A stretch of 64,000 nucleotides of DNA from Crossaster papposus (lineage: Eukaryota; Echinodermata; Asteroidea; Velatida; Solasteridae): assembly GCA_037893245.1 (NCBI GenBank), contig JBAIAA010000668.1:124001-188000 (forward strand), given 5' to 3'. Below, in pieces: positions 1 to 64,000 of the stretch. The translations under genes were made by a program, and so were the position numbers. The notes under the pieces were generated by a model. The model saw nothing but the letters and a program-made list of their open reading frames with translations. It had not been told where the DNA came from and searched no databases. Every line of letters begins with the position of its first letter. Position 1 is the stretch's first letter.

Positions 1-31
1 AAGAAGTGTGCATAAGAAATATGTAAAGGGA
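1..31 (+). repeat. 31-bp core monomer (reference copy)
   Basis: This copy is the consensus. It contains GTGTGCATAAG near the start, AAATATG in the middle and TAAAGGGA at the end, and the next copy begins at base 32. Composition is 15 A, 9 G, 6 T and 1 C, so 32% GC, 77% purine and no CpG. The end of one copy and the start of the next form a 13-base purine run (AAAGGGAAAGAAG). TAA occurs twice per copy on the + strand, in different frames, so all + frames close quickly; the minus strand has no TAA, TAG or TGA. The first base is chosen arbitrarily. Confidence 0.97.
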
Positions 32-454
32 AAGAAGTGTGCATAAGAAATATGTAAAGGGAAAGAAGTGTGCATAAGAAATATGTAAAGGGAAAGAAGT
101 GTGCATAAGAAATATGTAAAGGGAAAGAAATGTGCATAAGAAATATGTAAAGGGAAAGAAGTGTGCATAAGAAATATGTAAAGGGAAAGAAGTGTGCATA
201 ATAAATATGTAAAGGGAAAGAAGTGTGCATAAGAAATATGTAAAGGGAAAGAAGTGTGCATAAGAAATATGTAAAGGGAAAGAAGTGTGCATAAGAAATA
301 TGTAAAGGGAAAGAAGTGTGCATAAGAAATATGTAAAGGGAAAGAAGTGTGCATAAGAAATATGTAAAGGGAAAGAAGTGTGCATAAGAAACATGTAAAG
401 GGAAAGAAGTGTGCATAAGAAATATGTAAAGGGAAAGAAGTGTGCATAAGAAAT
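1..454. repeat. Leading cassette-free tract
   Basis: Fourteen cores plus the first 20 bases of the fifteenth precede the first cassette. Point variants include GAAATGTGC near 128, CATAATAAAT near 188 and AAACATGTAAAG near 389. It is probably the tail of a longer tract that begins outside the window. Confidence 0.93.
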
Positions 455-1141
455 AAACACATGATGTGGGAACAAGCCCTCGAGTTAAATATGTAAAGGG
501 AAAGAAGTGTGCATAATAAATATGTAAAGGGAAAGAAGTGTGCATAATAAATATGTAAAGGGAAAGAAGTGTGCATAAGAAATATGTAAAGGGAAAGAAG
601 TGTGCATAAGAAATATGTAAAGGGAAAGAAGTGTGCATAAGAAATATGTAAAGGGAAAGAAGTGTGCATAAGAAATATGTAAAGGGAAAGAAGTGTGCAT
701 AAGAAATATGTAAAGGGAAAGAAGTGTGCATAAGAAATATGTAAAGGGAAAGAAGTGTGCATAAGAAATATGTAAAGGGAAAGAAGTGTGCATAAGAAAT
801 ATGTAAAGGGAAAGAAGTGTGCATAAGAAATATGTAAAGGGAAAGAAGTGTGCATAAGAAATATGTAAAGGGAAATAAGTGTGCATAAGAAATATGTAAA
901 GGGAAAGAAGTGTGCATAAGAAATATGTAAAGGGAAATAAGTGTGCATAAGAAATATGTAAAGGGAAAGAAGTGTGCATAAGAAATATGTAAAGGGAAAG
1001 AAGTGTGCATATGAAATATGTAAAGGGAAAGAAGTGTGCATAAGAAATATGTAAAGGGAAAGAAGTGTGCATAAGAAATATGTAAAGGGAAAGAAGTGTG
1101 CATAAGAAATATGTAAAGGGAAAAAAGTGTGCATAAGAAAT
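455..1141. repeat. HOR-I block, copy 1 (687 bp)
   Basis: One cassette core plus 20 plain cores. Diagnostic variants in order are CATAATAAAT twice just after the cassette, GGAAATAAGTG twice (about 873 and 935), CATATGAAAT (about 1008) and GGAAAAAAGTG (about 1120). The same ordered variants recur in the blocks starting at 1829, 4937, 6094, 8898, 10773 and 13820, which makes this a true higher-order repeat. Confidence 0.92.
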
Positions 1142-1828
1142 AAACACATGATGTGGGAACAAGCCCTCGAGTTAAATATGTAAAGGGAAAGAAGTGTGCA
1201 TAAGAAATATGTAAAGGGAAAGAAGTGTGCATAAGAAATATGTAAAGGGAAAGAAGTGTGCATAAGAAATATGTAAAGGGAAAGAAGTGTGCATAAGAAA
1301 AATGTAAAGGGAAAGAAGTGTGCATAAGACATATGTAAAGGGAAAGAAGTGTGCATAAGAAATATGTAAAGGGAAAGAAGTGTGCATAAGAAATATGTAA
1401 AGGGAAAGAAGTGTGCATAAGAAATATGTAAAGGGAAAGAAGTGTGCATAAGAAATATGTAAAGGGAAAGAAGAGTGCATAAGAAATATGTAAAGGGAAA
1501 GAAGTGTGCATAAGAAATATGTAAAGGGAAAGAAGTGTGCATAAGAAATATGTAAAGGGAAAGAAGTGTGCATAAGAAATATGTAAAGGGAAAGAAGTGT
1601 GCATAAGAAATATGTAAAGGGAAAGAAGTGTGCATAAGAAATATGTAAAGGGAAAGAAGTGTGCATAAGAAATATGTAAAGGGAAAGAAGTGTGCATAAG
1701 AAATATGTAAAGGGAAAGAAGTGTGCATAAGAAATATGTAAAGGGAAAGAAGTGTGCATAAGAAATATGTAAAGGGAAAAAAGTGTGCATAAGAAATATG
1801 TAAAGGGAAAGAAGTGTGCATAAGAAAT
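1142..1828. repeat. HOR-II block, short copy (687 bp)
   Basis: One cassette core plus 20 plain cores with the HOR-II variants: AAAAATGTAAAG (about 1299, where the other copies have AAACATG), AGACATATG (about 1328), AAGAGTGC (about 1472) and GGAAAAAAGTG late in the block. It is four cores shorter than the 811-bp copies from 2515, 6781 and 11460, and it lacks the AATGTGTAAAG variant that they carry. Confidence 0.88.
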
Positions 1829-2514
1829 AAACACATGATGTCGGGACAAGCCCTCGAGTTAAATATGTAAAGGGAAAGAAGTGTGCATAATAAATATGTA
1901 AAGGGAAAGAAGTGTGCATAATAAATATGTAAAGGGAAAGAAGTGTGCATAAGAAATATGTAAAGGGAAAGAAGTGTGCATAAGAAATATGTAAAGGGAA
2001 AGAAGTGTGCATAAGAAATATGTAAAGGGAAAGAAGTGTGCATAAGAAATATGTAAAGGGAAAGAAGTGTGCATAAGAAATATGTAAAGGGAAAGAAGTG
2101 TGCATAAGAAATATGTAAAGGGAAAGAAGTGTGCATAAGAAATATGTAAAGGGAAAGAAGTGTGCATAAGAAATATGTAAAGGGAAAGAAGTGTGCATAA
2201 GAAATATGTAAAGGGAAAGAAGTGTGCATAAGAAATATGTAAAGGGAAATAAGTGTGCATAAGAAATATGTAAAGGGAAAGAAGTGTGCATAAGAAATAT
2301 GTAAAGGGAAATAAGTGTGCATAAGAAATATGTAAAGGGAAAGAAGTGTGCATAAGAAATATGTAAAGGAAAGAAGTGTGCATATGAAATATGTAAAGGG
2401 AAAGAAGTGTGCATAAGAAATATGTAAAGGGAAAGAAGTGTGCATAAGAAATATGTAAAGGGAAAGAAGTGTGCATAAGAAATATGTAGAGGGAAAAAAG
2501 TGTGCATAAGAAAT
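1829..2514. repeat. HOR-I block, copy 2 (686 bp)
   Basis: It has the same variant order as the block at 455. It opens with a TCGGGAC-type cassette, and one core near 2370 has lost a G, giving 686 instead of 687 bp. A GTAGAGGG variant occurs near 2488. Confidence 0.9.
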
Positions 2515-3325
2515 AAACACATGATGTGGGAACAAGCCCTCGAGTTAAATATGTAAAGGGAAAGAAGTGTGCATAAGAAATATGTAAAGGGAAAGAAGTG
2601 TGCATAAGAAATATGTAAAGGGAAAGAAGTGTGCATAAGAAATATGTAAAGGGAAAGAAGTGTGCATAAGAAACATGTAAAGGGAAAGAAGTGTGCATAA
2701 GACATATGTAAAGGGAAAGAAGTGTGCATAAGAAATATGTAAAGGGAAAGAAGTGTGCATAAGAAATATGTAAAGGGAAAGAAGTGTGCATAAGAAATAT
2801 GTAAAGGGAAAGAAGTGTGCATAAGAAATATGTAAAGGGAAAGAAGAGTGCATAAGAAATATGTAAAGGGAAAGAAGTGTGCATAAGAAATATGTAAAGG
2901 GAAAGAAGTGTGCATAAGAAATATGTAAAGGGAAAGAAGTGTGCATAAGAAATATGTAAAGGGAAAGAAGTGTGCATAAGAAATATGTAAAGGGAAAGAA
3001 GTGTGCATAAGAAATATGTAAAGGGAAAGAAGTGTGCATAAGAAATATGTAAAGGGAAAGAAGTGTGCATAAGAAATGTGTAAAGGGAAAGAAGTGTGCA
3101 TAAGAAATATGTAAAGGGAAAGAAGTGTGCATAAGAAATATGTAAAGGGAAAGAAGTGTGCATAAGAAATATGTAAAGGGAAAGAAGTGTGCATAAGAAA
3201 TATGTAAAGGGAAAGAAGTGTGCATAAGAAATATGTAAAGGGAAAGAAGTGTGCATAAGAAATATGTAAAGGGAAAAAAGTGTGCATAAGAAATATGTAA
3301 AGGGAAAGAAGTGTGCATAAGAAAT
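2515..3325. repeat. HOR-II block (811 bp)
   Basis: One cassette core plus 24 plain cores. Ordered variants are AAACATG (about 2672), AGACATATG (about 2701), AAGAGTGC (about 2845), AATGTGTAAAG (about 3076) and GGAAAAAAGTG (about 3273). It is followed directly by a six-cassette cluster, as are the matching blocks from 6781 and 11460. Confidence 0.9.
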
Positions 3326-3372
3326 AAACACATGATGTCGGGACAAGCCCTCGAGTTAAATATGTAAAGGGA

Positions 3373-3439
3373 AAGAAGTGTGCATAAGAAATAAACACAT
3401 GATGTGGGAACAAGCCCTCGAGTTAAATATGTAAAGGGA
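3373..3439 (+). repeat. 67-bp long monomer (core plus cassette, reference copy)
   Basis: This copy is the core split after its 20th base by a 36-bp cassette; the remaining 11 core bases follow. All 148 long monomers have the cassette at this position and in this orientation. Tandem runs of long monomers give exact 67-bp steps, for example cassettes at 3393, 3460, 3527, 3594 and 3661. Since 67 and 31 both leave remainder 1 on division by 3, reading frames rotate by one with every unit of either kind. Confidence 0.96.
3393..3428 (+). repeat. 36-bp cassette inside the long monomer
   Basis: The cassette carries an 11-bp inverted repeat CACATGATGTG (3396-3406; 5-bp arms, one central G), a GGGAACAAGCCC stretch, an XhoI site CTCGAG (3417-3422) and ends in TTAAAT. 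Its CpG is the only one in consensus satellite sequence. It also holds the TAA that closes one minus-strand frame. The sequence AAATA occurs at both junctions, so cassette loss (or gain) by recombination between 5-bp direct repeats is possible. Recurrent variants include TCGGGAC for TGGGAAC, GTGCGAAC, and CCCGAGAG, CCCTCTAG or CCCCAGAG in place of CCCTCGAG. I recognise no protein-binding motif or transposon in it. Confidence 0.95.
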
Positions 3440-3696
3440 AAGAAGTGTGCATAAGAAATAAACACATGATGTGGGAACAAGCCCTCGAGTTAAATATGTA
3501 AAGGGAAAGAAGTGTGCATAAGAAATAAACACATGATGTGGGAACAATCCCTCGAGTTAAATATGTAAAGGGAAAGAAGTGTGCATAAGAAATAAACACA
3601 TGATGTGGGAACAAGCCCTCGAGTTAAATATGTAACGGGAAAGAAGTGTGCATAAGAAATAAACACATGATGTGGGAACAAGCCCTCGAGTTAAAT

Positions 3697-4936
3697 ATGT
3701 AAAGGGAAAGAAGTGTGCATAAGAAATATGTAAAGGGAAAGAAGTGTGCATAAGAAATATGTAAAGGGAAAGAAGTGTGCATAAGAAATATGTAAAGGGA
3801 AAGAAGTGTGCATAAGAAATATGTAAAGGGAAAGAAGTGTGCATAAGAAATATGTAAAGGGAAAGAAGTGTGCATAAGAAATATGTAAAGGGAAAGAAGT
3901 GTGCATAAGAAATATGTAAAGGGAAAGAAGTGTGCATAAGAAATATGTAAAGGGAAAGAAGTGTGCATAAGAAATATGTAAAGGGAAAGAAGTGTGCATA
4001 AGAAATATGTAAAGGGAAAGAAGTGTGCATAAGAAATATGTAAAGGGAAAGAAGTGTGCATAAGAAATATGTAAAGGGAAAGAAGTGTGCATAAGAAATA
4101 TGTAAAGGGAAAGAAGTGTGCATAAGAAATATGTAAAGGGAAAGAAGTGTGCATAAGAAATATGTAAAGGGAAAGAAGTGTGCATAAGAAATATGTAAAG
4201 GGAAAGAAGTGTGCATAAGAAATATGTAAAGGGAAAGAAGTGTGCATAAGAAATATGTAAAGGGAAAGAAGTGTGCATAAGAAATATGTAAAGGGAAAGA
4301 AGTGTGCATAAGAAATATGTAAAGGGAAAGAAGTGTGCATAAGAAATATGTAAAGGGAAAGAAGTGTGCATAAGAAATATGTAAAGGGAAAGAAGTGTGC
4401 ATAAGAAATATGTAAAGGGAAAGAAGTGTGCATAAGAAATATGTAAAGGGAAAGAAGTGTGCATAAGAAATATGTAAAGGGAAAGAAGTGTGCATAAGAA
4501 ATATGTAAAGGGAAAGAAGTGTGCATAATAAATATGTAAAGGGAAAGAAGTGTGCATAAGAAATATGTAAAGGGAAAGAAGTGTGCATAAGAAATATGTA
4601 AAGGGAAAGAAGTGTGCATAAGAAATATGTAAAGGGAAAGAAGTGTGCATAAGAAATATGTAAAGGGAAAGAAGTGTGCATAAGAAATATGTAAAGGGAA
4701 AGAAGTGTGCATAAGAAATATGTAAAGGGAAAGAAGTGTGCATAAGAAATATGTAAAGGGAAAGAAATGTGCATAAGAAATATGTAAAGGGAAAGAAGTG
4801 TGCATAAGAAATATGTAAAGGGAAAGAAGTGTGCATAAGAAATATGTAAAGGGAAAGAAGTGTGCATAAGAAATATGTAAAGGGAAAGAAGTATGCATAA
4901 GAAATATGTAAAGGGAAAGAAGTGTGCATAAGAAAT
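3697..4936. repeat. Cassette-free tract of 39 cores
   Basis: Plain cores with few variants: CATAATAAAT near 4527, GAAATGTGC near 4766 and AAGTATGCATAAG near 4890. The tracts from 7963 (14 cores) and 12642 (37 cores) occupy the same place after their clusters, so this segment differs in core number between otherwise similar blocks. The 12642 tract carries the same three variants near its end. Confidence 0.92.
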
Positions 4937-5623
4937 AAACACATGATGTGGGAACAAGCCCTCGAGTTAAATATGTAAAGGGAAAGAAGTGTGCATAATA
5001 AATATGTAAAGGGAAAGAAGTGTGCATAATAAATATGTAAAGGGAAAGAAGTGTGCATAAGAAATATGTAAAGGGAAAGAAGTGTGCATAAGAAATATGT
5101 AAAGGGAAAGAAGTGTGCATAAGAAATATGTAAAGGGAAAGAAGTGTGCATAAGAAATATGTAAAGGGAAAGAAGTGTGCATAAGAAATATGTAAAGGGA
5201 AAGAAGTGTGCATAAGAAATATGTAAAGGGAAAGAAGTGTGCATAAGAAATATGTAAAGGGAAAGAAGTGTGCATAAGAAATATGTAAAGGGAAAGAAGT
5301 GTGCATAAGAAATATGTAAAGGGAAAGAAGTGTGCATAAGAAATATGTAAAGGGAAATAAGTGTGCATAAGAAATATGTAAAGGGAAAGAAGTGTGCATA
5401 AGAAATATGTAAAGGGAAATAAGTGTGCATAAGAAATATGTAAAGGGAAAGAAGTGTGCATAAGAAATATGTAAAGGGAAAGAAGTGTGCATATGAAATA
5501 TGTAAAGGGAAAGAAGTGTGCATAAGAAATATGTAAAGGGAAAGAAGTGTGCATAAGAAATATGTAAAGGGAAAGAAGTGTGCATAAGAAATATGTAAAG
5601 GGAAAAAAGTGTGCATAAGAAAT
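4937..5623. repeat. HOR-I block, copy 3 (687 bp)
   Basis: It carries the HOR-I variant order (two CATAATAAAT, two GGAAATAAGTG, CATATGAAAT, GGAAAAAAGTG) at the same internal offsets as the block from 455. Minus-strand translations of the two are identical over 225 residues. Confidence 0.93.
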
Positions 5624-6093
5624 AAACACATGATGTGGGAACAAGCCCTCGAGTTAAATATGTAAAGGGAAAGAAGTGTGCATAAGAAATATGTAAAGGG
5701 AAAGAAGTGTGCATAAGAAATATGTAAAGGGAAAGAAGTGTGCATAAGAAATATGTAAAGGGAAAGAAGTGTGCATAAGAAATATGTAAAGGGAAAAAAG
5801 TGTGCATAAGAAATATGTAAAGGGAAAGAAGTGTGCATAAGAAATATGTAAAGGGAAAGAAGTGTGCATAAGAAATATGTAAAGGGAAAGAAGTGTGCAT
5901 AAGAAATATGTAAAGGGAAAGAAGTGTGCATAAGAAATATGTAAAGGGAAAGAAGTGTGCATAAGAAATATGTAAAGGGAAAGAAGTGTGCATAAGAAAT
6001 ATGTAAAGGGAAAGAAGTGTGCATAAGAATTATGTAAAGGGAAAGAAGTGTGCATAAGAAATATGTAAAGGGAAAGAAGTGTGCATAAGAAAT
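5624..6093. repeat. HOR-III block, copy 1 (470 bp)
   Basis: One cassette core plus 13 plain cores. Diagnostic variants are GGAAAAAAGTG (about 5794) and AGAATTATG (about 6028). The second puts a TAA on the minus strand. The blocks from 8428 and 10303 have both variants at the same offsets, and each of the three is followed by a HOR-I block. Confidence 0.92.
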
Positions 6094-6780
6094 AAACACA
6101 TGATGTGGGAACAAGCCCTCGAGTTAAATATGTAAAGGGAAAGAAGTGTGCATAATAAATATGTAAAGGGAAAGAAGTGTGCATAATAAATATGTAAAGG
6201 GAAAGAAGTGTGCATAAGAAATATGTAAAGGGAAAGAAGTGTGCATAAGAAATATGTAAAGGGAAAGAAGTGTGCATAAGAAATATGTAAAGGGAAAGAA
6301 GTGTGCATAAGAAATATGTAAAGGGAAAGAAGTGTGCATAAGAAATATGTAAAGGGAAAGAAGTGTGCATAAGAAATATGTAAAGGGAAAGAAGTGTGCA
6401 TAAGAAATATGTAAAGGGAAAGAAGTGTGCATAAGAAATATGTAAAGGGAAAGAAGTGTGCATAAGAAATATGTAAAGGGAAAGAAGTGTGCATAAGAAA
6501 TATGTAAAGGGAAATAAGTGTGCATAAGAAATATGTAAAGGGAAAGAAGTGTGCATAAGAAATATGTAAAGGGAAATAAGTGTGCATAAGAAATATGTAA
6601 AGGGAAAGAAGTGTGCATAAGAAATATGTAAAGGGAAAGAAGTGTGCATATGAAATATGTAAAGGGAAAGAAGTGTGCATAAGAAATATGTAAAGGGAAA
6701 GAAGTGTGCATAAGAAATATGTAAAGGGAAAGAAGTGTGCATAAGAAATATGTAAAGGGAAAAAAGTGTGCATAAGAAAT
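6094..6780. repeat. HOR-I block, copy 4 (687 bp)
   Basis: It has the HOR-I variant order at unchanged offsets, preceded by HOR-III and followed by HOR-II. This III-I-II succession recurs from 8428 and from 10303. Confidence 0.93.
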
Positions 6781-7591
6781 AAACACATGATGTGGGAACA
6801 AGCCCTCGAGTTAAATATGTAAAGGGAAAGAAGTGTGCATAAGAAATATGTAAAGGGAAAGAAGTGTGCATAAGAAATATGTAAAGGGAAAGAAGTGTGC
6901 ATAAGAAATATGTAAAGGGAAAGAAGTGTGCATAAGAAACATGTAAAGGGAAAGAAGTGTGCATAAGACATATGTAAAGGGAAAGAAGTGTGCATAAGAA
7001 ATATGTAAAGGGAAAGAAGTGTGCATAAGAAATATGTAAAGGGAAAGAAGTGTGCATAAGAAATATGTAAAGGGAAAGAAGTGTGCATAAGAAATATGTA
7101 AAGGGAAAGAAGAGTGCATAAGAAATATGTAAAGGGAAAGAAGTGTGCATAAGAAATATGTAAAGGGAAAGAAGTGTGCATAAGAAATATGTAAAGGGAA
7201 AGAAGTGTGCATAAGAAATATGTAAAGGGAAAGAAGTGTGCATAAGAAATATGTAAAGGGAAAGAAGTGTGCATAAGAAATATGTAAAGGGAAAGAAGTG
7301 TGCATAAGAAATATGTAAAGGGAAAGAAGTGTGCATAAGAAATGTGTAAAGGGAAAGAAGTGTGCATAAGAAATATGTAAAGGGAAAGAAGTGTGCATAA
7401 GAAATATGTAAAGGGAAAGAAGTGTGCATAAGAAATATGTAAAGGGAAAGAAGTGTGCATAAGAAATATGTAAAGGGAAAGAAGTGTGCATAAGAAATAT
7501 GTAAAGGGAAAGAAGTGTGCATAAGAAATATGTAAAGGGAAAAAAGTGTGCATAAGAAATATGTAAAGGGAAAGAAGTGTGCATAAGAAAT
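6781..7591. repeat. HOR-II block (811 bp), copy 2
   Basis: It matches the block from 2515 in length and in variant order (AAACATG, AGACATATG, AAGAGTGC, AATGTGTAAAG, GGAAAAAAGTG), and is likewise followed by a six-cassette cluster. Confidence 0.92.
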
Positions 7592-7962
7592 AAACACATG
7601 ATGTCGGGACAAGCCCTCGAGTTAAATATGTAAAGGGAAAGAAGTGTGCATAAGAAATAAACACATGATGTGGGAACAAGCCCTCGAGTTAAATATGTAA
7701 AGGGAAAGAAGTGTGCATAAGAAATAAACACATGATGTGGGAACAAGCCCTCGAGTTAAATATGTAAAGGGAAAGAAGTGTGCATAAGAAATAAACACAT
7801 GATGTGGGAACAATCCCTCGAGTTAAATATGTAAAGGGAAAGAAGTGTGCATAAGAAATAAACACATGATGTGGGAACAAGCCCTCGAGTTAAATATGTA
7901 ACGGGAAAGAAGTGTGCATAAGAAATAAACACATGATGTGGGAACAAGCCCTCGAGTTAAAT
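7592..7962. repeat. Six-cassette cluster, copy 2
   Basis: Cassettes start at 7592, 7659, 7726, 7793, 7860 and 7927. The TCGGGAC first member, ACAATCCCTCGAG fourth member and GTAACGGG core sit in the same positions as in the cluster from 3326. Confidence 0.93.
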
Positions 7963-8427
7963 ATGTAAAGGGAAAGAAGTGTGCATAAGAAATATGTAAA
8001 GGGAAAGAAGTGTGCATAAGAAATATGTAAAGGGAAAGAAGTGTGCATAAGAAATATGTAAAGGGAAAGAAGTGTGCATAAGAAATATGTAAAGGGAAAG
8101 AAGTGTGCATAAGAAATATGTAAAGGGAAAGAAGTGTGCATAAGAAATATGTAAAGGGAAAGAAGTGTGCATAAGAAATATGTAAAGGGAAAGAAGTGTG
8201 CATAAGAAATATGTAAAGGGAAAGAAGTGTGCATAAGAAATATGTAAAGGGAAAGAAGTGTGCATAAGAAATATGTAAAGGGAAAGAAGTGTGCATAAGA
8301 AATATGTAAAGGGAAAGAAGTGTGCATAAGAAATATGTAAAGGGAAAGAAGTGTGCATAAGAAATATGTAAAGGGAAAGAAGTGTGCATAAGAAATATGT
8401 AAAGGGAAAAAAGTGTGCATAAGAAAT
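7963..8427. repeat. Cassette-free tract of 14 cores
   Basis: Plain cores ending in a GGAAAAAAGTG variant near 8408. It is much shorter than the equivalent tracts from 3697 and 12642. Confidence 0.92.
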
Positions 8428-40222: not shown

Positions 40223-41099
40223 AAACACATGATGTCGGGACAAGCCCTCGAGTTAAATATGTAAAGGGAAAGAATTGTGCATAAGAAATAAACACATGAT
40301 GTGGGAACAAGCCCTCGAGTTAAATATGTAAAGGGAAAGAAGTGTGCATAAGAAATAAACACATGATGTGGGAACAAGCCCTCGAGTTAAATATGTAAAA
40401 GGAAAGAAGTGTGCATAAGAAATAAACACATGATGTGGGAACAAGCCCTCGAGTTAAATATGTAAAGGAAAAGAAGTGTGCATAAGAAATAAACACATGA
40501 TGTGGGAACAAGCCCGAGAGTTAAATATGTAAATGGAAAGAAGTGTGCATAAGAAATATGTAAAGGGAAAGAAGTGTGCATAGGAAATATGTAAAGGGAA
40601 AGAAGTGTGCATAAGAAATATGTAAAGGGAAAGAAGTGTGCATAAGAAATATGTAAAGGGAAAGAAGTGTGCATAAGAAATATGTAAAGGGAAAGAAGTG
40701 TGCATAAGAAATATGTAAAGGGAAAGAAGTGTGCATAAGAAATATGTAAAGGGAAAGAAGTGTGCATAAGTAATAAACACATGATGTGGGAACAAGCCCT
40801 CGAGTTAAATATGTAAAGGGAAAGAAGTGTGCATAAGAAATAAACACATGATGTGGGAACAAGCCCTCGAGTTAAATATGTAAAGGGAAAGAAGTGTGCA
40901 TAAGAAATATGTAAAGGGAAAGAAGTGTGCATAATAAATATGTAAAGGGAAAGAAGTGTGCATAAGAAATATGTAAAGGGAAAGAAGTGTGCATAAGAAA
41001 TATGTAAAGGGAAAGAAGTGTGCATAAGAAATATGTAAAGGGAAAGAAGTGTGCATAAGAAATAAACACATGATGTGGGAACAAGCCCTCGAGTTAAAT
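40223..41099. repeat. Cassette module, eight cassettes in 877 bp (copy 1)
   Basis: Cassettes start at 40223, 40290, 40357, 40424, 40491, 40775, 40842 and 41064, with 0, 0, 0, 0, 7, 0 and 5 plain cores between. The first five repeat the cluster from 36262. CATAGGAAAT (about 40578) and AAGTAATAAACAC before the sixth cassette are further markers. The module from 44137 shows the same spacing and markers exactly 3,914 bp later. Confidence 0.94.
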
Positions 41100-44000
41100 A
41101 TGTAAAGGGAAAGAAGTGTGCATAAGAAATATGTAAAGGGAAAGAAGTGTGCATAAGAAATATGTAAAGGGAAAGAAGTGTGCATAAGAAATATGTAAAG
41201 GGAAAGAAGTGTGCATAAGAAATATGTAAAGGGAAAGAAGTGTGCATAAGAAATATGTAAAGGGAAAGAAGTGTGCATAAGAAATATGTAAAGGGAAAGA
41301 AGTGTGCATAAGAAATATGTAAAGGGAAAGAAGTGTGCATAAGAAATATGTAAAGGGAAAGAAGTGTGCATAAGAAATATGTAAAGGGAAAGAAGTGTGC
41401 ATAAGAAATATGTAAAGGGAAAGAAGTGTGCATAAGAAATATGTAAAGGGAAGAAGTGTGCATAAGAAATATGTAAAGGGAAAGAAGTGTGCATAAGAAA
41501 TATGTAAAGGGAAAGAAGTGTGCATAAGAAATATGTAAAGGGAAAGAAGTGTGCATAAGAAATATGTAAAGGGAAAGAAGTGTGCATAAGAAATATGTAA
41601 AGGGAAAGAAGTGTGCATAAGAAATATGTAAAGGGAAAGAAGTGTGCATAAGAAATATGTAAAGGGAAAGAAGTCTGCATAAGAAATATGTAAAGGGAAA
41701 GAAGTGTGCATAAGAAATATGTAAAGGGAAAGAAGTGTGCATAAGAAATATGTAAAGGGAAAGAAGTGTGCATTAGAAATATGTAAAGGGAAAGAAGTGT
41801 GCATAAGAAATATGTAAAGGGAAAGAAGTGTGCATAAGAAATATGTAAAGGGAAAGAAGTGTGCATAAGAAATATGTAAAGGGAAAGAAGTGTGCATAAG
41901 AAATATGTAAAGGGAAAGAAGTGTGCATAAGAAATATGTAAAGGGAAAGAAGTGTGCATAAGAAATATGTAAAGGGAAAGAAGTGTGCATAAGAAATATG
42001 TAAAGGGAAAGAAGTGTGCATAAGAAATATGTAAAGGGAAAGAAGTCTGCATAAGAAATATGTAAAGGGAAAGAAGTGTGCATAAGAAATATGTAAAGGG
42101 AAAGAAGTGTGCATAAGAAATATGTAAAGGGAAAGAAGTGTGCATTAGAAATATGTAAAGGGAAAGAAGTGTGCATAAGAAATATGTAAAGGGAAAGAAG
42201 TGTGCATAAGAAATATGTAAAGGGAAAGAAGTGTGCATAAGAAATATGTAAAGGGAAAGAAGTGTGCATAAGAAATATGTAAAGGGAAAGAAGTGTGCAT
42301 AAGAAATATGTAAAGGGAAAGAAGTGTGCATAAGAAATATGTAAAGGGAAAGAAGTGTGCATAAGAAATATGTAAAGGGAAAGAAGTGTGCATAAGAAAT
42401 ATGTAAAGGGAAAGAAGTGTGCATAAGAAATATGTAAAGGGAAAGAAGTGTGCATAAGAAATATGTAAAGGGAAAGAAGTGTGCATAAGAAATATGTAAA
42501 GGGAAATAAGTGTGCATACGAAATATGTAAAGGGAAAGAAGTGTGCATAAGAAATATGTAAAGGGAAGGAAGTGTGCATAAGAAATATGTAAAGGGAAAG
42601 AAGTGTGCATAAGAAATATGTAAAGGGAAAGAAGTGTGCATAAGAAATATGTAAAGGGAAAGAAGTGTGCATAAGAAATATGTAAAGGGAAAGAAGTGTG
42701 CATAAGAAATATGTAAAGGGAAAGAAGTGTGCATAAGAAATATGTAAAGGGAAAGAAGTGTGCATAAGAAATATGTAAAGGGAAAGAAGTGTGCATAAGA
42801 AATATGTAAAGGGAAAGATGTGTGCATAAGAAATATGTAAAGGGAAAGAAGTGTGCATAAGAAATATGTAAAGGGAAAGAAGTGTGCATAAGAAATATGT
42901 AAAGGGAAAGAAGTGTGCATAAGAAATATGTAAAGGGAAAGAAGTGTGCATAAGAAATATGTAAAGGAAAAGAAGTGTGCATAAGAAATATGTAAAGGGA
43001 AAGAAGTGTGCATAAGAAATATGTAAAGGGAAAGAAGTGTGCATAAGAAATATGTAAAGGGAAAGAAGTGTGCATAAGAAATATGTAAAGGAAAAGAAGT
43101 GTGCATAAGAAATATGTAAAGGGAAAGAAGTGTGCATAAGAAATATGTAAAGGGAAAGAAGTGTGCATAAGAAATATGTAAAGAGAAAGAAGTGTGCATA
43201 AGAAATATGTAAAGGGAAAGAAGTGTGCATAATAAATATGTAAAGGGAAAGAAGTGTGCATAAGAAATATGTAAAGGGAAAGAAGTGTGCATAAGAAATA
43301 TGTAAAGGGAAAGAAGTGTGCATAAGAAATATGTAAAGGGAAAGAAGTGTGCATAAGAAATATGTAAAGGGAAAGAAGTGTGCATAAGAAATACGTAAAG
43401 GGAAAGAAGTGTGCATAAGAAATATGTAAAGGGAAAGAAGTGTGCATAAGAAATATGTAAAGGAAAAGAAGTGTGCATAAGAAATATGTAAAGGGAAAGA
43501 AGTGTGCATAAGAAATATGTAAAGGGAAAGAAGTGTGCATAAGAAATATGTAAAGGGAAAGAAGTGTGCATAAGAAATATGTAAAGGAAAAGAAGTGTGC
43601 ATAAGAAATATGTAAAGGGAAAGAAGTGTGCATAAGAAATATGTAAAGGGAAAGAAGTGTGCATAAGAAATATGTAAAGAGAAAGAAGTGTGCATAAGAA
43701 ATATGTAAAGGGAAAGAAGTGTGCATAAGAAATATGTAAAGGGAAAGAAGTGTGCATAAGAAATATGTAAAGGGAAAGAAGTGTGCATAAGAAATATGTA
43801 AAGGGAAAGAAGTGTGCATAAGAAATATGTAAAGGGAAAGAAGTGTGCATAAGAAATATGTAAAGGGAAAGAAGTGTGCATAAGAAATACGTAAAGGGAA
43901 AGAAGTGTGCATAAGAAATACGTAAAGGGAAAGAAGTGTGCATAAGAAATATGTAAAGGGAAGGAAGTGTGCATAAGAAATATGTAAAGGGAAAGAAGTG

Positions 44001-50582: not shown

Positions 50583-51862
50583 ATAAGAAATATGTAAAGG
50601 GAAGGAAGTGTGCATAAGAAATATGTAAAGGGAAAGAAGTGTGCATAAGAAATATGTAAAGGGAAAGAAGTGTGCATAAGAAATATGTAAAGGGAAAGAA
50701 GTGTGCATAAGAAATATGTAAAGGGAAAGAAGTGTGCATAAGAAATATGTAAAGGGAAAGAAGTGTGCATAAGAAATATGTAAAGGGAAAGAAGTGTGCA
50801 TAAGAAATATGTAAAGGGAAAGAAGTGTGCATAAGAAATATGTAAAGGGAAAGAAGTGTGCATAAGAAATATGTAAAGGGAAAGAAGTGTGCATAAGAAA
50901 TATGTAAAGGGAAAGAAGTGTGCATAAGAAATATGTAAAGGGAAAGAAGTGTGCATAAGAAATATGTAAAGGGAAAGAAGTGTGCATAAGAAATATGTAA
51001 AGGGAAAGAAGTGTGCATAAGAAATATGTAAAGGGAAAGAAGTGTGCATAAGAAATATGTAAAGGGAAAGAAGTGTGCATAAGAAATATGTAAAGGGAAA
51101 GAAGTGTGCATACGAAATATGTAAAGGGAAAGAAGTGTGCATAAGAAATATGTAAAGGGAAAGAAGTGTGCATAAGAAATATGTAAAGGGAAAGAAGTGT
51201 GCCTAAGAAATATGTAAAGGGAAAGAAGTGTGCATACGAAATATGTAAAGGGAAAGAAGTGTGCATAAGAAATATGTAAAGGGAAAGAAGTGTGCATAAG
51301 AAATATGTAAAGGGAAAGAAGTGTGCATAAGAAATATGTAAAGGGAAAGAAGTGTGCATAAGAAATATGTAAAGGGAAAGAAGTGTGCATAAGAAATATG
51401 TAAAGGGAAAGAAGTGTGCATAAGAAATATGTAAAGGGAAAGAAGTGTGCATTAGAAATATGTAAAGGGAAAGAAGTGTGCATAAGAAATATGTAAAGGG
51501 AAAGAAGTGTGCATAAGAAATATGTAAAGGGAAAGAAGTGTGCATAAGAAATATGTAAAGGGAAAGAAGTGTGCATAAGAAATATGTAAAGGGAAAGAAG
51601 TGTGCATACGAAATATGTAAAGGGAAAGAAGTGTGCATAAGAAATATGTAAAGGGAAAGAAGTGTGCATACGAAATATGTAAAGGGAAAGAAGTGTGCAT
51701 AATAAATATGTAAAGGGAAGGAAGTGTGCATAAGAAATATGTAAAGGGAAAGAAGTGTGCATAAGAAATATGTAAAGGGAAAGAAGTGTGCATAAGAAAT
51801 ATGTAAAGGGAAAGAAGTGTGCATAAGAAATATATAAAGGGAAAGAAGTGTGCATAAGAAAT

Positions 51863-52166
51863 AAACACATGATGTCGGGACAAGCCCTCGAGTTAAATAT
51901 GTAAAGGGAAAGAAGTGTGCATAAGAAATAAACACATGATGTGGGAACAAGCCCTCTAGTTAAATATGTAAAGGGGAAGAAGTGTGCATAAGAAATAAAC
52001 ACATGATGTGGGAACAAGCCCTCGAGTTAAATATGTAAAGGGAAAGAAGTGTGCATAAGAAATAAACACATGATGTGGGAACAAGCCCTCGAGTTAAATA
52101 TGTAAAGGAAAAGAAGTGTGCATAAGAAATAAACACATGATGTGGGAACAAGCCCGAGAGTTAAAT
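51863..52166. repeat. Five-cassette cluster (zone 5, copy 1)
   Basis: Cassettes start at 51863, 51930, 51997, 52064 and 52131. In order: first TCGGGAC, second CCCTCTAG followed by AAAGGGGAAG, last CCCGAGAG. The clusters from 58802 and 59633 repeat this series. It opens the left copy of the terminal duplication. Confidence 0.94.
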
Positions 52167-52383
52167 ATGTAAAGGGAAAGAAGTGTGCATAAGAAATATG
52201 TAAAGGGAAAGAAGTGTGCATAAGAAATATGTAAAGGGAAAGAAGTGTGCATAAGAAATATGTAAAGGGAAAGAAGTGTGCATAAGAAATATGTAAAGGG
52301 AAAGAAGTGTGCATAAGAAATATGTAAAGGGAAAGAAGTGTGCATAAGAAATATGTAAAGGGAAAGAAGTGTGCATAAGAAAT

Positions 52384-52646
52384 AAACACATGATGTGGGA
52401 ACAAGCCCTCGAGTTAAATATGTAAAGGGAAAGAAGTGTGCATAAGAAATAAACACATGATGTGGGAACAAGCCCTCGAGTTAAATATGTAAAGGGAAAG
52501 AAGTGTGCATAATAAATATGTAAAGGGAAAGAAGTGTGCATAAGAAATATGTAAAGGGAAAGAAGTGTGCATAAGAAATATGTAAAGGGAAAGACGTGTG
52601 CATAAGAAATAAACACATGATGTGGGAACAAGCCCTCGAGTTAAAT
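52384..52646. repeat. Cassette pair plus single (zone 5, copy 1)
   Basis: Cassettes at 52384, 52451 and 52611; the gap before the last is three cores and includes a GACGTGTGC core. The set from 60154 has the same spacing and the same GACGTGTGC marker. Confidence 0.93.
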
Positions 52647-53266
52647 ATGTAAAGGGAAAGAAGTGTGCATAAGAAATATGTAAAGGGAAAGAAGTGTGCG
52701 TAAGAAATGTGTAAAGGGAAAGAAGTGTGCATAAGAAATATGTAAAGGGAAAGAAGTGTGCATAAGAAATATGTAAAGGGAAAGAAGTGTGCATAAGAAA
52801 TATGTAAAGGAAAATAAGTGTGCATAAGAAATATGTAAAGGGAAAGAAGTGTGCATGAGAAATATGTAAAGGGAAAGAAGTGTGCATAAGAAATATGTAA
52901 AGGGAAAGAAGTGTGCATAAGAAATATGTAAAGGGAAAGAAGTGTGCATAATAAATATGTAAAGGGAAAGAAGTGTGCATAAGAAATATGTAAAGGGAAA
53001 GAAGTGTGCATAAGAAATATGTAAAGGGAAAGAAGTGTGCATAAGAAATATGTAAAGGGAAAGAAGTGTGCATACGAAATATGTAAAGGGAAAGAAGTGT
53101 GCATAAGAAATATGTAAAGGGAAGGAAGTGTGCATAAGAAATATGTAAAGGGAAAGAAGTGTGCATAAGAAATATGTAAAGGGAAAGAAGTGTGCATAAG
53201 AAATATGTAAAGGGAAAGAAGTGTGCATAAGAAATATGTAAAGGGAAAGAAGTGTGCATAAGAAAT

Positions 53267-53868
53267 AAACACATGATGTCGGGACAAGCCCTCGAGTTAA
53301 ATATGTAAAGGGAAAGAAGTGTGCATAAGAAATAAACACATGATGTGGGAACAAGCCCTCGAGTTAAATATGTAAAGGGAAAGAAGTGTGCATATGAAAA
53401 ATAAACACATGATGTGGGAACAAGCCCTCGAGTTAAATATGTAAAGGGACAGAAGTGTGCATAAGAAATAAACACATGATGTGGGAACAAGCCCTCGAGT
53501 TAAATATGTAAAGGGAAAGAAGTGTGCATAAGAAATAAACACATGATGTGGGAACAAGCCCCAGAGTTAAATATGTAAAGGGAAAGAAGTGTGCATAAGA
53601 AATATGTAAAGGGAAAGAAGTGTGCATAAGAAATATGTAAAGGGAAAGAAGTGTGCATAAGAAATATGTAAAGGGAAAGAAGTGTGCATAAGAAAAATAA
53701 ACACATGATGTGGGAACAAGCCCTCGAGTTAAATATGTAAAGGGAAAGAAGTGTGCATAAGAAATAAACACATGATGTGGGAACAAGCCCTCGAGTTAAA
53801 TATGTAAAGGGAAAGAAGTGTGCATAAGAAATAAACACATGATGTGGGAACAAGCCCGAGAGTTAAAT
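53267..53868. repeat. Eight-cassette cluster, copy 1
   Basis: Cassettes start at 53267, 53334, 53403, 53470, 53537, 53699, 53766 and 53833. The first is TCGGGAC, the fifth CCCCAGAG and the eighth CCCGAGAG. GAAAAATAAACAC before the third and sixth cassettes adds 2 bp each time. Three plain cores separate the fifth and sixth; the copy from 61037 lacks those three cores. Confidence 0.93.
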
Positions 53869-54116
53869 ATGTAAAGGGAAAGAAGTGTGCATAAGAAATA
53901 TGTAAAGGGAAAGAAGTGTGCATAAGAAATATGTAAAGGGAAAGAAGTGTGCATAAGAAATATGTAAAGGGAAAGAAGTGTGCATAAGAAATATGTAAAG
54001 GGAAATAAGTGTGCATAAGAAATATGTAAAGGGAAAGAAGTGTGCATAAGAAATATGTAAAGGGAAAGAAGTGTGCATAATAAATATGTAAAGGGAAAGA
54101 AGTGTGCATAAGAAAT

Positions 54117-54379
54117 AAACACATGATGTGGGAACAAGCCCTCGAGTTAAATATGTAAAGGGAAAGAAGTGTGCATAAGAAATAAACACACGATGTGGGA
54201 ACAAGCCCTCGAGTTAAATATGTAAAGGGAAAGAAGTGTGCATAAGAAATATGTAAAGGGAAAGAAGTGTGCATAAGAAATATGTAAAGGGAAAGAAGTG
54301 TGCATAAGAAATATGTAAAGGGAAAGAAGTGTGCATAAGAAATAAACACATGATGTGGGAACAAGCCCTCGAGTTAAAT
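54117..54379. repeat. Cassette pair plus single, second set (zone 5, copy 1)
   Basis: Cassettes at 54117, 54184 and 54344. The second reads ACACGATG, which breaks the CACATGATGTG palindrome. Spacing matches the set from 61794. Confidence 0.93.
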
Positions 54380-55247
54380 ATGTAAAGGGAAAGAAGTGTG
54401 CATAAGAAATATGTAAAGGGAAAGAAGTGTGCATAAGAAATATGTAAAGGGAAAAAAGTGTGCATAAGAAATATGTAAAGGGAAAGAAGTGTGCATAAGA
54501 AATATGTAAAGGGAAAGAAGTGTGCATAAGAAATATGTAAAGGGAAAGAAGTGTGCATAAGAAATATGTAAAGGGAAAGAAGTGTGCATAAGAAATATGT
54601 AAAGGGAAAGAAGTGTGCATAAGAAATATGTAAAGGGAAAGAAGTGTGCATAAGAAATATGTAAAGGGACAGAAGTGTGCATAAGAAATATGTAAAGGGA
54701 AAGAAGTGTGCATAAGAAATATGTAAAGGGAAAGAAGTGTGCATAAGAAATATGTAAAGGGAAAGAAGTGTGCATAAGAAATATGTAAAGGGAAAGAAGT
54801 GTGCATAAGAAATATGTAAAGGGAAAGAAGTGTGCATAAGAAATATGTAAAGGAAAAGAAGTGTGCATAAGAAATATGTAAAGGGAAAGAAGTGTGCATA
54901 AGAAATATGTAAAGGGAAAGAAGTGTGCATAAGAAATATGTAAAGGGAAAGAAGTGTGCATAAGAAATATGTAAAGGGAAAGAAGTGTGCATAAGAAATA
55001 TGTAAAGGGAAAGAAGTGTGCATAAGAAATATGTAAAGGGAAAGAAGTGTGCAAAAGAAATATGTAAAGGGAAAGAAGTGTGCATAAGAAATATGTAAAG
55101 GGAAAGAAGTGTGCATAAGAAATATGTAAAGGGAAAGAAGTGTGCATAAGAAATATGTAAAGGGAAAGAAGTGTGCATAAGAAATATGTAAAGGGAAAGA
55201 AGTGTGCATAAGAAATATGTAAAGGGAAAGAAGTGTGCATAAGAAAT
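54380..55247. repeat. Cassette-free tract of 27 cores
   Basis: Variants include GGAAAAAAGTG (about 54452), GGGACAGAAG (about 54666), AAAGGAAAAG (about 54850) and GCAAAAG (about 55051). The tract 62057-62924 is the homologous copy with equal core number and keeps the first three. Confidence 0.92.
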
Positions 55248-55794
55248 AAACACATGATGTGGGAACAAGCCCTCGAGTTAAATATGTAAAGGGAAAGAAG
55301 TGTGCATATGAAATATGTAAAGGGAAAGAAGTGTGCATAAGAAATATGTAAAGGGAAAGAAGTGTGCATAAGAAATATGTAAAGGGAAAGAAGTGTGCAT
55401 AAGAAATATGTAAAGGGAAAGAAGTGTGCATAAGAAATATGTAAAGGGAAAGAAGTGTGCATAAGAAATATGTAAAGGGAAAGAAGTGTGCATAAGAAAT
55501 ATGTAAAGGGAAAGAAGTGTGCATAAGAAATAAACACATGATGTGGGAACAAGCCCTCGAGTTACATATGTAAAGGGAAAGAAGTGTGCATAAGAAATAA
55601 ACACATGATGTGGGAACAAGCCCTCGAGTTAAATATGTAAAGGGAAAGAAGTGTGCATAAGAAATATGTAAAGGGAAAGAAGTGTGCATAAGAAATATGT
55701 AAAGTGAAAGAAGTGTGCATAAGAAATATGTAAAGGGAAAGAAGTGTGCATCAGAAATAAACACATGATGTGGGAACAAGCCCTCGAGTTAAAT
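55248..55794. repeat. Four spaced cassettes closing the left duplication copy
   Basis: Cassettes at 55248, 55532, 55599 and 55759, with 7, 0 and 3 cores between. A GTTACATATG core follows the second, and a GCATCAG core precedes the fourth. The right copy has 8, 0 and 3 cores and shares the GTTACATATG core. Confidence 0.92.
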
Positions 55795-58700
55795 ATGTAA
55801 AGGGAAAGAAGTGTGCATAAGAAATATGTAAAGGGAAAGAAGTGTGCATAAGAAATATGTAAAGGGAAAGAAGTGTGCATAAGAAATATTTAAAGGGAAA
55901 TAAGTGTGCATAAGAAATATGTAAAGTGAAAGAAGTGTGCATAAGAAATATGTAAAGGGAAAGAAGTGTGCATAAGAAATATGTAAAGGGAAAGAAGTGT
56001 GCATAAGAAATATGTAAAGGGAAAGAAGTGTGCATAAGAAATATGTAAAGGGAAAGAAGTGTGCATAAGAAATATGTAAAGGGAAAGAAGTGTGCATAAG
56101 AAATATGTAAAGGGAAAGAAGTGTGCATAAGAAATATGTAAAGGGAAAGAAGTGTGCATAAGAAATATGTAAAGGGAAAGAAGTGTGCATAAGAAATATG
56201 TAAAGGGAAAGAAGTGTGCATAAGAAATATGTAAAGGGAAAGAAGTGTGCATAAGAAATATGTAAAGGGAAAGAAGTGTGCATAAGAAATATGTAAAGGG
56301 AAAGAAGTGTGCATAAGGAATATGTAAAGGGAAAGAAGTGTGCATAAGAAATATGTAAAGGGAAAGAAGTGTGCATAAGAAATATGTAAAGGGAAAGAAG
56401 TGTGCATAAGAAATATGTAAAGGGAAAGAAGTGTGCATAAGAAATATGTAAAGGGAAAGAAGTGTGCATAAGAAATATGTAAAGGGAAAGAAGTGTGCAT
56501 AAGAAATATGTAAAGGGAAAGAAGTGTGCATAAGAAATATGTAAAGGGAAAGAAGTGTGCATAAGAAATATGTAAAGGGAAAGAAGTGTGCATAAGAAAT
56601 ATGTAGAGGGAAAGAAGTGTGCATAAGAAATATGTAGAGGGAAAGAAATGTGCATAAGAAATATGTAAAGGGAAAGAAGTGTGCATAAGAAATATGTAAA
56701 GGAAAAGAAGTGTGCATAAGAAAAATGTAAAGGGAAAGAAGTGTGCATAAGAAATATGTAAAGGGAAAGAAGTGTGCATAAGAAATATGTAAAGGGAAAG
56801 AAGTGTGCATACGAAATATGTAAAGGGAAAGAAGTGTGCATAAGAAATATGTAAAGGGAAAGAAGTGTGCATAAGAAATATGTAAAGGGAAAGAAGTGTG
56901 CATAAGAAATATGTAAAGGGAAAGAAGTGTGCATAAGAAATATGTAAAGGGAAAGAAGTGTGCATAAGAAATATGTAAAGAGAAAGAAGTGTGCATAAGA
57001 AATATGTAAAGGGAAAGAAGTGTGCATAAGAAATATGTAAAGGGAAAGAAGTGTGCATAAGAAATATGTAAAGGGAAAGAAGTGTGCATAAGAAATATGT
57101 AAAGGGAAAGAAGTGTGCATAAGAAATATGTAAAGGGAAAGAAGTGTGCATAAGAAATATGTAAAGGGAAAGAAGTGTGCATAAGAAATACGTAAAGGGA
57201 AAGAAGTGTGCATAAGAAATACGTAAAGGGAAAGAAGTGTGCATAAGAAATATGTAAAGGGAAAGAAGTGTGCATAAGAAATATGTAAAGGGAAAGAAGT
57301 GTGCATAAGAAATATGTAAAGGGAAAGAAGTGTGCATAAGAAATATGTAAAGGGAAAGAAGTGTGCATAAGAAATATGTAAAGGGAAAGAAGTGTGCATA
57401 AGAAATATGTAAAGGGAAAGAAGTGTGCATAAGAAATATGTAAAGGGAAAGAAGTGTGCATACGAAATATGTAAAGGGAAAGAAGTGTGCATAAGAAATA
57501 TGTAAAGGGAAGGAAGTGTGCATAAGAAATATGTAAAGGGAAAGAAGTGTGCATAAGAAATATGTAAAGGGAAAGAAGTGTGCATAAGAAATATGTAAAG
57601 GGAAAGAAGTGTGCATAAGAAATATGTAAAGGGAAAGAAGTGTGCATAAGAAATATGTAAAGGGAAAGAAGTGTGCATAAGAAATATGTAAAGGGAAAGA
57701 AGTGTGCATAAGAAATATGTAAAGGGAAAGAAGTGTGCATAAGAAATATGTAAAGGGAAAGAAGTGTGCATAAGAAATATGTAAAGGGAAAGAAGTGTGC
57801 ATAAGAAATATGTAAAGGGAAAGAAGTGTGCATAAGAAATATGTAAAGGGAAAGAAGTGTGCATAAGAAATATGTAAAGGGAAAGAAGTGTGCATAAGAA
57901 ATATGTAAAGGGAAAGAAGTGTGCATAAGAAATATGTAAAGGGAAAGAAGTGTGCATAAGAAATATGTAAAGGGAAAGAAGTGTGCATAAGAAATATGTA
58001 AAGGGAAAGAAGTGTGCATACGAAATATGTAAAGGGAAAGAAGTGTGCATAAGAAATATGTAAAGGGAAAGAAGTGTGCATAAGAAATATGTAAAGGGAA
58101 AGAAGTGTGCCTAAGAAATATGTAAAGGGAAAGAAGTGTGCATACGAAATATGTAAAGGGAAAGAAGTGTGCATAAGAAATATGTAAAGGGAAAGAAGTG
58201 TGCATAAGAAATATGTAAAGGGAAAGAAGTGTGCATAAGAAATATGTAAAGGGAAAGAAGTGTGCATAAGAAATATGTAAAGGGAAAGAAGTGTGCATAA
58301 GAAATATGTAAAGGGAAAGAAGTGTGCATAAGAAATATGTAAAGGGAAAGAAGTGTGCATAAGAAATATGTAAAGGGAAAGAAGTGTGCATAAGAAATAT
58401 GTAAAGGGAAAGAAGTGTGCATAAGAAATATGTAAAGGGAAAGAAGTGTGCATAAGAAATATGTAAAGGGAAAGAAGTGTGCATAAGAAATATGTAAAGG
58501 GAAAGAAGTGTGCATAAGAAATATGTAAAGGGAAAGAAGTGTGCATACGAAATATGTAAAGGGAAAGAAGTGTGCATAAGAAATATGTAAAGGGAAAGAA
58601 GTGTGCATACGAAATATGTAAAGGGAAAGAAGTGTGCATAATAAATATGTAAAGGGAAGGAAGTGTGCATAAGAAATATGTAAAGGGAAAGAAGTGTGCA

Positions 58701-59936: not shown

Positions 59937-60153
59937 ATGTAAAGGGAAAGAAGTGTGCATAAGAAATATGTAAAGGGAAAGAAGTGTGCATAATAAATAT
60001 GTAAAGGGAAAGAAGTGTGCATAAGAAATATGTAAAGGGAAAGAAGTGTGCATAAGAAATATGTAAAGGGAAAGAAGTGTGCATAAGAAATATGTAAAGG
60101 GAAAGAAGTGTGCATAAGAAATATGTAAAGGGAAAGAAGTGTGCATAAGAAAT

Positions 60154-61545: not shown

Positions 61546-61793
61546 ATGTAAAGGGAAAGAAGTGTGCATAAGAAATATGTAAAGGGAAAGAAGTGTGCAT
61601 AAGAAATATGTAAAGGGAAAGAAGTGTGCATAAGAAATATGTAAAGGGAAAGAAGTGTGCATAAGAAATATGTAAAGGGAAATAAGTGTGCATAAGAAAT
61701 ATGTAAAGGGAAAGAAGTGTGCATAAGAAATATGTAAAGGGAAAGAAGTGTGCATAATAAATATGTAAAGGGAAAGAAGTGTGCATAAGAAAT

Positions 61794-62056
61794 AAACACA
61801 TGATGTGGGAACAAGCCCTCGAGTTAAATATGTAAAGGGAAAGAAGTGTGCATAAGAAATAAACACATGATGTGGGAACAAGCCCTCGAGTTAAATATGT
61901 AAAGGGAAAGAAGTGTGCATAAGAAATATGTAAAGGGAAAGAAGTGTGCATAAGAAATATGTAAAGGGAAAGAAGTGTGCATAAGAAATATGTAAAGGGA
62001 AAGAAGTGTGCATAAGAAATAAACACATGATGTGGGAACAAGCCCTCGAGTTAAAT
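61794..62056. repeat. Cassette pair plus single, second set (zone 5, copy 2)
   Basis: Cassettes at 61794, 61861 and 62021. The second has an intact ACATGATG, unlike its counterpart at 54184. Confidence 0.93.
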
Positions 62057-62924
62057 ATGTAAAGGGAAAGAAGTGTGCATAAGAAATATGTAAAGGGAAA
62101 GAAGTGTGCATAAGAAATATGTAAAGGGAAAAAAGTGTGCATAAGAAATATGTAAAGGGAAAGAAGTGTGCATAAGAAATATGTAAAGGGAAAGAAGTGT
62201 GCATAAGAAATATGTAAAGGGAAAGAAGTGTGCATAAGAAATATGTAAAGGGAAAGAAGTGTGCATAAGAAATATGTAAAGGGAAAGAAGTGTGCATAAG
62301 AAATATGTAAAGGGAAAGAAGTGTGCATAAGAAATATGTAAAGGGACAGAAGTGTGCATAAGAAATATGTAAAGGGAAAGAAGTGTGCATAAGAAATATG
62401 TAAAGGGAAAGAAGTGTGCATAAGAAATATGTAAAGGGAAAGAAGTGTGCATAAGAAATATGTAAAGGGAAAGAAGTGTGCATAAGAAATATGTAAAGGG
62501 AAAGAAGTGTGCATAAGAAATATGTAAAGGAAAAGAAGTGTGCATAAGAAATATGTAAAGGGAAAGAAGTGTGCATAAGAAATATGTAAAGGGAAAGAAG
62601 TGTGCATAAGAAATATGTAAAGGGAAAGAAGTGTGCATAAGAAATATGTAAAGGGAAAGAAGTGTGCATAAGAAATATGTAAAGGGAAAGAAGTGTGCAT
62701 AAGAAATATGTAAAGGGAAAGAAGTGTGCATAAGAAATATGTAAAGGGAAAGAAGTGTGCATAAGAAATATGTAAAGGGAAAGAAGTGTGCATAAGAAAT
62801 ATGTAAAGGGAAAGAAGTGTGCATAAGAAATATGTAAAGGGAAAGAAGTGTGCATAAGAAATATGTAAAGGGAAAGAAGTGTGCATAAGAAATATGTAAA
62901 GGGAAAGAAGTGTGCATAAGAAAT
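62057..62924. repeat. Cassette-free tract of 27 cores (copy 2)
   Basis: It shares GGAAAAAAGTG (about 62129), GGGACAGAAG (about 62343) and AAAGGAAAAG (about 62527) with the tract from 54380, at a constant offset of 7,677 bp. Confidence 0.92.
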
Positions 62925-63502
62925 AAACACATGATGTGGGAACAAGCCCTCGAGTTAAATATGTAAAGGGAAAGAAGTGTGCATATGAAATATGTAAAGG
63001 GAAAGAAGTGTGCATAAGAAATATGTAAAGGGAAAGAAGTGTGCATAAGAAATATGTAAAGGGAAAGAAGTGTGCATAAGAAATATGTAAAGGGAAAGAA
63101 GTGTGCATAAGAAATATGTAAAGGGAAAGAAGTGTGCATAAGAAATATGTAAAGGGAAAGAAGTGTGCATAAGAAATATGTAAAGGGAAAGAAGTGTGCA
63201 TAAGAAATATGTAAAGGGAAAGAAGTGTGCATAAGAAATAAACACATGATGTGGGAACAAGCCCTCGAGTTACATATGTAAAGGGAAAGAAGTGTGCATA
63301 AGAAATAAACACATGATGTGGGAACAAGCCCTCGAGTTAAATATGTAAAGGGAAAGAAGTGTGCATAAGAAATATGTAAAGGGAAAGAAGTGTGCATAAG
63401 AAATATGTAAAGGGAAAGAAGTGTGCATAAGAAATATGTAAAGGGAAAGAAGTGTGCATAAGAAATAAACACATGATGTGGGAACAAGCCCTCGAGTTAA
63501 AT
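62925..63502. repeat. Four spaced cassettes closing the right duplication copy
   Basis: Cassettes at 62925, 63240, 63307 and 63467, with 8, 0 and 3 cores between. One core more than in the left copy separates the first two. Confidence 0.92.
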
Positions 63503-64000
63503 ATGTAAAGGGAAAGAAGTGTGCATAAGAAATATGTAAAGGGAAAGAAGTGTGCATAAGAAATATGTAAAGGGAAAGAAGTGTGCATAAGAAATATGTA
63601 AAGGGAAATAAGTGTGCATAAGAAATATGTAAAGTGAAAGAAGTGTGCATAAGAAATATGTAAAGGGAAAGAAGTGTGCATAAGAAATATGTAAAGGGAA
63701 AGAAGTGTGCATAAGAAATATGTAAAGGGAAAGAAGTGTGCATAAGAAATATGTAAAGGGAAAGAAGTGTGCATAAGAAATATGTAAAGGGAAAGAAGTG
63801 TGCATAAGAAATATGTAAAGGGAAAGAAGTGTGCATAAGAAATATGTAAAGGGAAAGAAGTGTGCATAAGAAATATGTAAAGGGAAAGAAGTGTGCATAA
63901 GAAATATGTAAAGGGAAAGAAGTGTGCATAAGAAATATGTAAAGGGAAAGAAGTGTGCATAAGAAATATGTAAAGGGAAAGAAGTGTGCATAAGAAATAT
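63503..64000. repeat. Trailing cassette-free tract, cut by the window end
   Basis: Fifteen complete cores and a 22-base partial core follow the last cassette. GGAAATAAGTG near 63607 and AAAGTGAAAG near 63630 resemble cores just after 55795, so the duplication probably continues past the window. Confidence 0.9.

Follow-up and report, generated by a model that had tools for sequence, protein, structure and literature searches.

A 64-kb tandem array with a 31-bp core and an optional 36-bp cassette, probably the interior of a satellite rebuilt by block-wise exchange

How does an array that repeats itself from end to end come to hold units of two lengths, the longer one always carrying its extra bases at the same place? 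We analysed a window of 64,000 bases (the whole stretch of DNA considered here), which an earlier note had read as a two-state satellite: one 31-bp core, with or without a 36-bp cassette inserted at an invariant site, an arrangement that it called unusual and possibly an undescribed family. The window is very probably the interior of a eukaryotic satellite array, in which a 36-bp gain or loss at AAATA was followed by block-wise unequal exchange.

Units and cassettes of the array

The following features define the array and its longer unit, the two units having been located by anchor spacing.

1..64000, + strand: tandem array of the 31-bp core AAGAAGTGTGCATAAGAAATATGTAAAGGGA, unbroken over the whole window, 1,892 units and a 22-base tail, with no flank in the window
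435..501, + strand: first unit with a cassette (unit index 14), the 36-bp cassette lying at 455-490
3373..3439, + strand: example of the 67-bp unit (core with cassette)

Units were anchored on AAGAAGTGTGCATAA, the first 15 bases of the core, with up to 3 substitutions allowed. This yielded 1,893 anchors in the window, with spacings of 31 bp (1,734 cases), 67 bp (144), 30 bp (10) and 69 bp (4), and a tail of 22 bases after the last full unit. The spacings bear out the 67-bp unit that the earlier note had placed at 3373-3439, as well as its accounting of 1,892 cores, a 22-base remainder, 148 cassettes and corrections of minus 10 and plus 8 bases, which is exact (1,892 x 31 + 148 x 36 - 10 + 8 + 22 = 64,000). 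The 30-bp units lack one base, and the 69-bp units have two additional A/T bases immediately left of the insert. The tandem-repeat finder TRF, proposed as a check, covers all 64,000 bases as one array (a single row over 1..64000, period 31, 2,040.7 copies); its remaining 31 rows (periods of 18, 36 or 67) all fall inside that array.

The description as two states holds for unit length but not for sequence, as there are 96 distinct full-unit types among the 1,892 units. The consensus is matched exactly by 1,416 of the 1,734 31-mers and by 64 of the 144 67-mers. Mean divergence from consensus is 0.66% for the 31-mers, while the 67-mers diverge by 0.81% in their core part and 1.47% in their cassette part. 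GC content per 2 kb is 32-35% across the window. The two strands are markedly asymmetric, with 75.8% purine on the plus strand and a GC skew per 2 kb of 0.58-0.80.

The 67-bp unit is laid out as core-AAATA-31 bp-AAATA-core, the 36-bp cassette thus consisting of a 31-bp insert and a single AAATA, a 5-bp direct repeat that the core already contains. The cassette occurs in 15 sequences among its 148 copies, with the commonest 36-bp form accounting for 94 of them. All 148 cassettes sit at one core site (four with the two extra bases beside it), and to this extent the site is invariant, although the presence of AAATA on each side of the insert leaves the exact point of insertion uncertain within 5 bases. 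That insert and core have the same length may be chance, since they share no convincing sequence similarity. On the forward strand, 330 of 500 shuffles reached the Smith-Waterman (SW) score of insert against core, and 418 of 500 did so for the best rotation. The reverse complement of the insert gave a best-rotation identity of 14/31, found in 37 of 500 shuffles, and an SW score found in 415 of 500, which is likewise unconvincing.

Block copying and the distribution of cassettes

For the block search, units were treated as letters and compared by local alignment with a cut-off score of 30. Twenty alignments reached the cut-off, with scores of 30.0-146.3. Three controls were used: units shuffled singly (5 shuffles; best scores 9.5-12.5), a lenient control in which cassette runs are broken up; shuffling with cassette runs left intact (20 shuffles; best score at most 27.7); and ten-unit blocks retained (20 shuffles; at most 30.7), in which real ten-unit duplications are preserved. 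All alignments except one, which scores 30.0, beat every shuffled control; 15 score at least 38, and the four at 30.9-31.2 lie only just above the controls. Three of the aligned blocks are given here.

51471..56270, + strand: 4.8-kb block with a duplicate at 59241-63978 (unit-level alignment 0)
435..8407, + strand: block aligned to the overlapping stretch 4917-13086 (unit-level alignment 1)
40048..43868, + strand: 3.8-kb block with a repeat at 43931-47658 (unit-level alignment 3)

The 4.8-kb block and its duplicate have 125 aligned units, 4 gapped, 9 differing and 38 shared non-consensus, with 23 cassette/cassette pairs and no mixed pair. The corresponding figures for the block at 435..8407 are 227 aligned, 18 gapped, 14 differing and 46 shared non-consensus units, and the 3.8-kb block aligns over 110 units with 5 gapped and only 1 differing. 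At 37197-38684, 24 units (744 bp per copy) are duplicated in tandem without differing units or gaps (alignment 9). A single fixed higher-order period was sought over lags 1-899 and rejected, as matches at any lag amounted to no more than 3% of the units departing from the consensus in either copy. Local matching, computed in 100-unit stretches at lags 5-699, rises to 81% (lag 117, units 1200-1299).

The 20 alignments contain 1,406 aligned unit pairs (1,292 core/core, 113 cassette/cassette and 1 mixed), so cassette state is equal in 1,405 of 1,406, the alignments overlapping and the pairs being non-independent. The mixed pair, unit 147 against unit 279 in the alignment of 435..8407 with 4917-13086, has unlike neighbours and is for that reason, in our judgement, probably an artefact of the alignment edge. 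A strict test, requiring at least 3 shared rare units on each side of a pair, left 164 pairs: 151 core/core, 13 cassette/cassette and none mixed. The cassette therefore travels with its neighbourhood; its state is copied in blocks, and toggling was not seen. Occasional gain or loss of a cassette may still occur, given just 13 cassette pairs in the strict test and 10 cassettes among the 79 gapped units of the 20 alignments. Because block copies keep the cassette state, the fixed site is accounted for by descent. This weakens the earlier claim that the arrangement is unusual: one founding event plus block duplication suffices for an invariant site, and the two-state reading reduces to a founding insertion or deletion, then block duplication.

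The cassettes are also strongly clustered, with 84 adjacent pairs against 11.6 expected under independent placement. They form 64 runs, of length 1 (35), 2 (8), 3 (7), 5 (10), 6 (3) and 8 (1). All 14 runs of at least five cassettes open with one common variant, and 14 of the 15 copies of this variant sit at the starts of such runs. The shared opening points to the long runs being many copies of one ancestral run that was copied repeatedly. A comparison of neighbours drew attention to one further unit.

1809..1875, + strand: unit 56, the only A-type cassette outside the runs of at least five cassettes, a candidate recombinant

Unit 56 shares both its cassette variant and an identical left neighbour with the three runs of six. 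On its right, the two adjacent units are identical to those that follow six single cassettes (units 14, 147, 182, 262, 319 and 408). Unit 56 thus looks like the outcome of an unequal crossover between a run of six and a single cassette.

Origin of the two unit lengths

The unit make-up, the block copies with their shared rare variants, the conservation of cassette state within blocks and the common first variant of the long runs are direct observations. A long head-to-tail array of near-identical units, the mark of a satellite, extends over all 64,000 bases, and block homogenisation or higher-order structure, which is common in satellites though not required, is present, with 19 of the 20 alignments above the controls. 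The low divergence (0.66% for the 31-mers and 1.5% for the cassettes) also counts for the satellite-array explanation. The array is very probably satellite DNA of a well-known kind, the basis for that name, in its sense of genomic abundance, being these 64 kb. We infer a eukaryotic origin. A 31-bp unit and its 67-bp derivative, or the reverse, would have diverged by the 36-bp gain or loss at AAATA, presumably in a single founding event, whose direction would take an outgroup to polarise. The array would then have grown and been homogenised by unequal exchange copying blocks of tens to hundreds of units, with cassettes carried along with their neighbours; unequal crossing-over is the likely copying process. 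The array presumably makes no product, and if it has a role, this would be a structural one, in the form of heterochromatin or of centromere-type DNA.

The strongest rival account takes the 67-bp unit as the original form, the 31-bp core having come about through loss of 36 bp between the two AAATA copies before it took over. Direct repeats favour exactly such a deletion, up to 8 cassette units stand in succession, and cassettes are more diverged than 31-mers (1.5% against 0.66%), although weaker homogenisation of a minority unit would also explain the last point. Frequent deletion should leave mixed pairs, but the strict test found 0 of 164; a single early deletion would not leave them. We regard an ancestral 67-bp unit as possible, at somewhat less than even chances.

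The cassette might instead be what is left of a very small mobile element, 31 bp long and with AAATA as its 5-bp target-site duplication, which later spread passively with the blocks. A 5-bp direct repeat does flank the 31-bp insert, and when 20,000 shuffled inserts were each set at a randomly chosen core site, 0.97% had a repeat as long as AAATA. However, slippage or deletion between short repeats also yields a 5-bp repeat in A-rich DNA. The insert has ends (AAC...GTT) with complementarity over 3 bases and at 4 of the first 5, which is weak as a terminal feature. There is no second site among the 148 cassettes, and the scanned GTDB contigs and IMG/VR hold no exact copy. We consider a mobile origin unlikely.

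A separate question concerns where the blocks end. The ends of exactly shared blocks were compared with two nulls, circular shifts and random ends inside the same blocks, the latter for the ends of the first copy only. Under circular shifts, unique ends at cassettes numbered 35 of 91, 31 of 61 and 24 of 44 at thresholds of at least 4, 5 and 7 rare units shared per block, against 19.1, 12.8 and 9.2 expected. With the within-block null, the corresponding counts were 18 of 49, 16 of 33 and 12 of 24, against 11.6, 8.5 and 4.8 expected. Overall, the number of block ends at cassettes is 1.5 to 2.6 times the expectation, the ends being non-independent. Because ends are related by descent and one ancestral junction is counted several times, the shuffle counts overstate the significance. 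Counted as junction types, again under circular shifts and at the three thresholds, 13 of 35, 11 of 23 and 8 of 16 coincide with a cassette, against an expected fraction of 0.21-0.22. These figures, together with the crossover-like unit 56, could suggest that the cassette is a favoured junction for unequal exchange, with blocks swapped from cassette to cassette and a minority unit steering the rebuilding of the satellite, a proposal that we find doubtful. If cassettes do attract exchange, they would offer a way to study what determines where satellites recombine; if not, the array is one further satellite for the catalogue. In either case, the length difference between units serves as an internal marker in this clean 64-kb array and makes block exchange traceable unit by unit.

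An assembly artefact is a far weaker candidate. The array is very even and without flanks, and the finished sequence is the only basis for it, but its nested blocks share rare variants and its copies differ slightly, as in real satellites, and we judge an artefact very improbable. The idea of a repetitive protein encoded by the minus strand of the array, where all 51 open reading frames of at least 400 aa (open ends included; up to 2,432 aa) are found, can be set aside almost entirely: minus-strand stops are also absent from 41% of shuffled cores, so the long frames are due to base composition, and they overlap in differing frames, the unit length being not divisible by three and hence favouring none.

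Known satellites and short motifs

Higher-order blocks and monomers carrying insertions are familiar in satellites. In human alpha satellite, variant monomers are copied together as blocks whose copies have diverged little. The present array likewise copies blocks of variant monomers with low divergence between copies. It differs from human alpha satellite in unit length and sequence, and its blocks are irregular and follow no one fixed period.

The satellite is possibly undescribed so far, as the earlier note had suggested. Nothing contradicts this, but the collections searched are prokaryotic or viral and hardly places to expect a eukaryotic satellite, so the absence of relatives in them carries little weight. 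Patterns of 20-32 bases had no exact match in GTDB genome contigs or in IMG/VR. A single stretch of 501 bases, searched by blastn with the low-complexity filter on, had no match among PLSDB plasmids or INPHARED phages. Full-text literature searches with core and cassette words, covering main text, returned no title on satellite DNA among the matches. One match to the sequence words is, in its matching excerpt, an oil-palm primer, and our guess is that the remaining ones are primers as well. Phrases naming satellites, monomers or repeat units of 31 bp or 67 bp had no match in the papers searched.

Two described satellites resemble the array in unit length. Satellite I of cervids and bovids, in the part of PMC7288315 that describes it, has 31-bp subrepeats and thus shares with the present array a 31-bp subunit and a higher-order organisation. 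Compared by description, the deer subrepeats form monomers of 0.8 kb or 1 kb, unlike the present array, and the cervid satellite I clones have 54% GC in the rows given there, against 32-35% here, composition being a usual feature and not a strict criterion (PMC7288315). RproSat29-31 of Rhodnius prolixus is listed with a 31-bp repeat unit in the relevant portion of PMC8199985, a likeness in unit length.

Searches of the window for other functional elements gave no Rfam family at gathering scores (3000-5000 and the entire window), no tRNA, no exact match to the 17-bp CENP-B box NTTCGNNNNANNCGGGN on either strand, and no doubled TTAGGG, the one telomere type scanned. Within the cassettes, for example at 455-490, occurs TGTGGGAAC, with 125 plus-strand matches in the window. 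It fits the RBPJ/Su(H) consensus, YGTGRGAAC; the match is probably chance, known motifs being so many. The common cassette additionally carries an XhoI site (CTCGAG), of which there are 133 in the window, and this would allow cassette spacing to be checked by restriction digestion.
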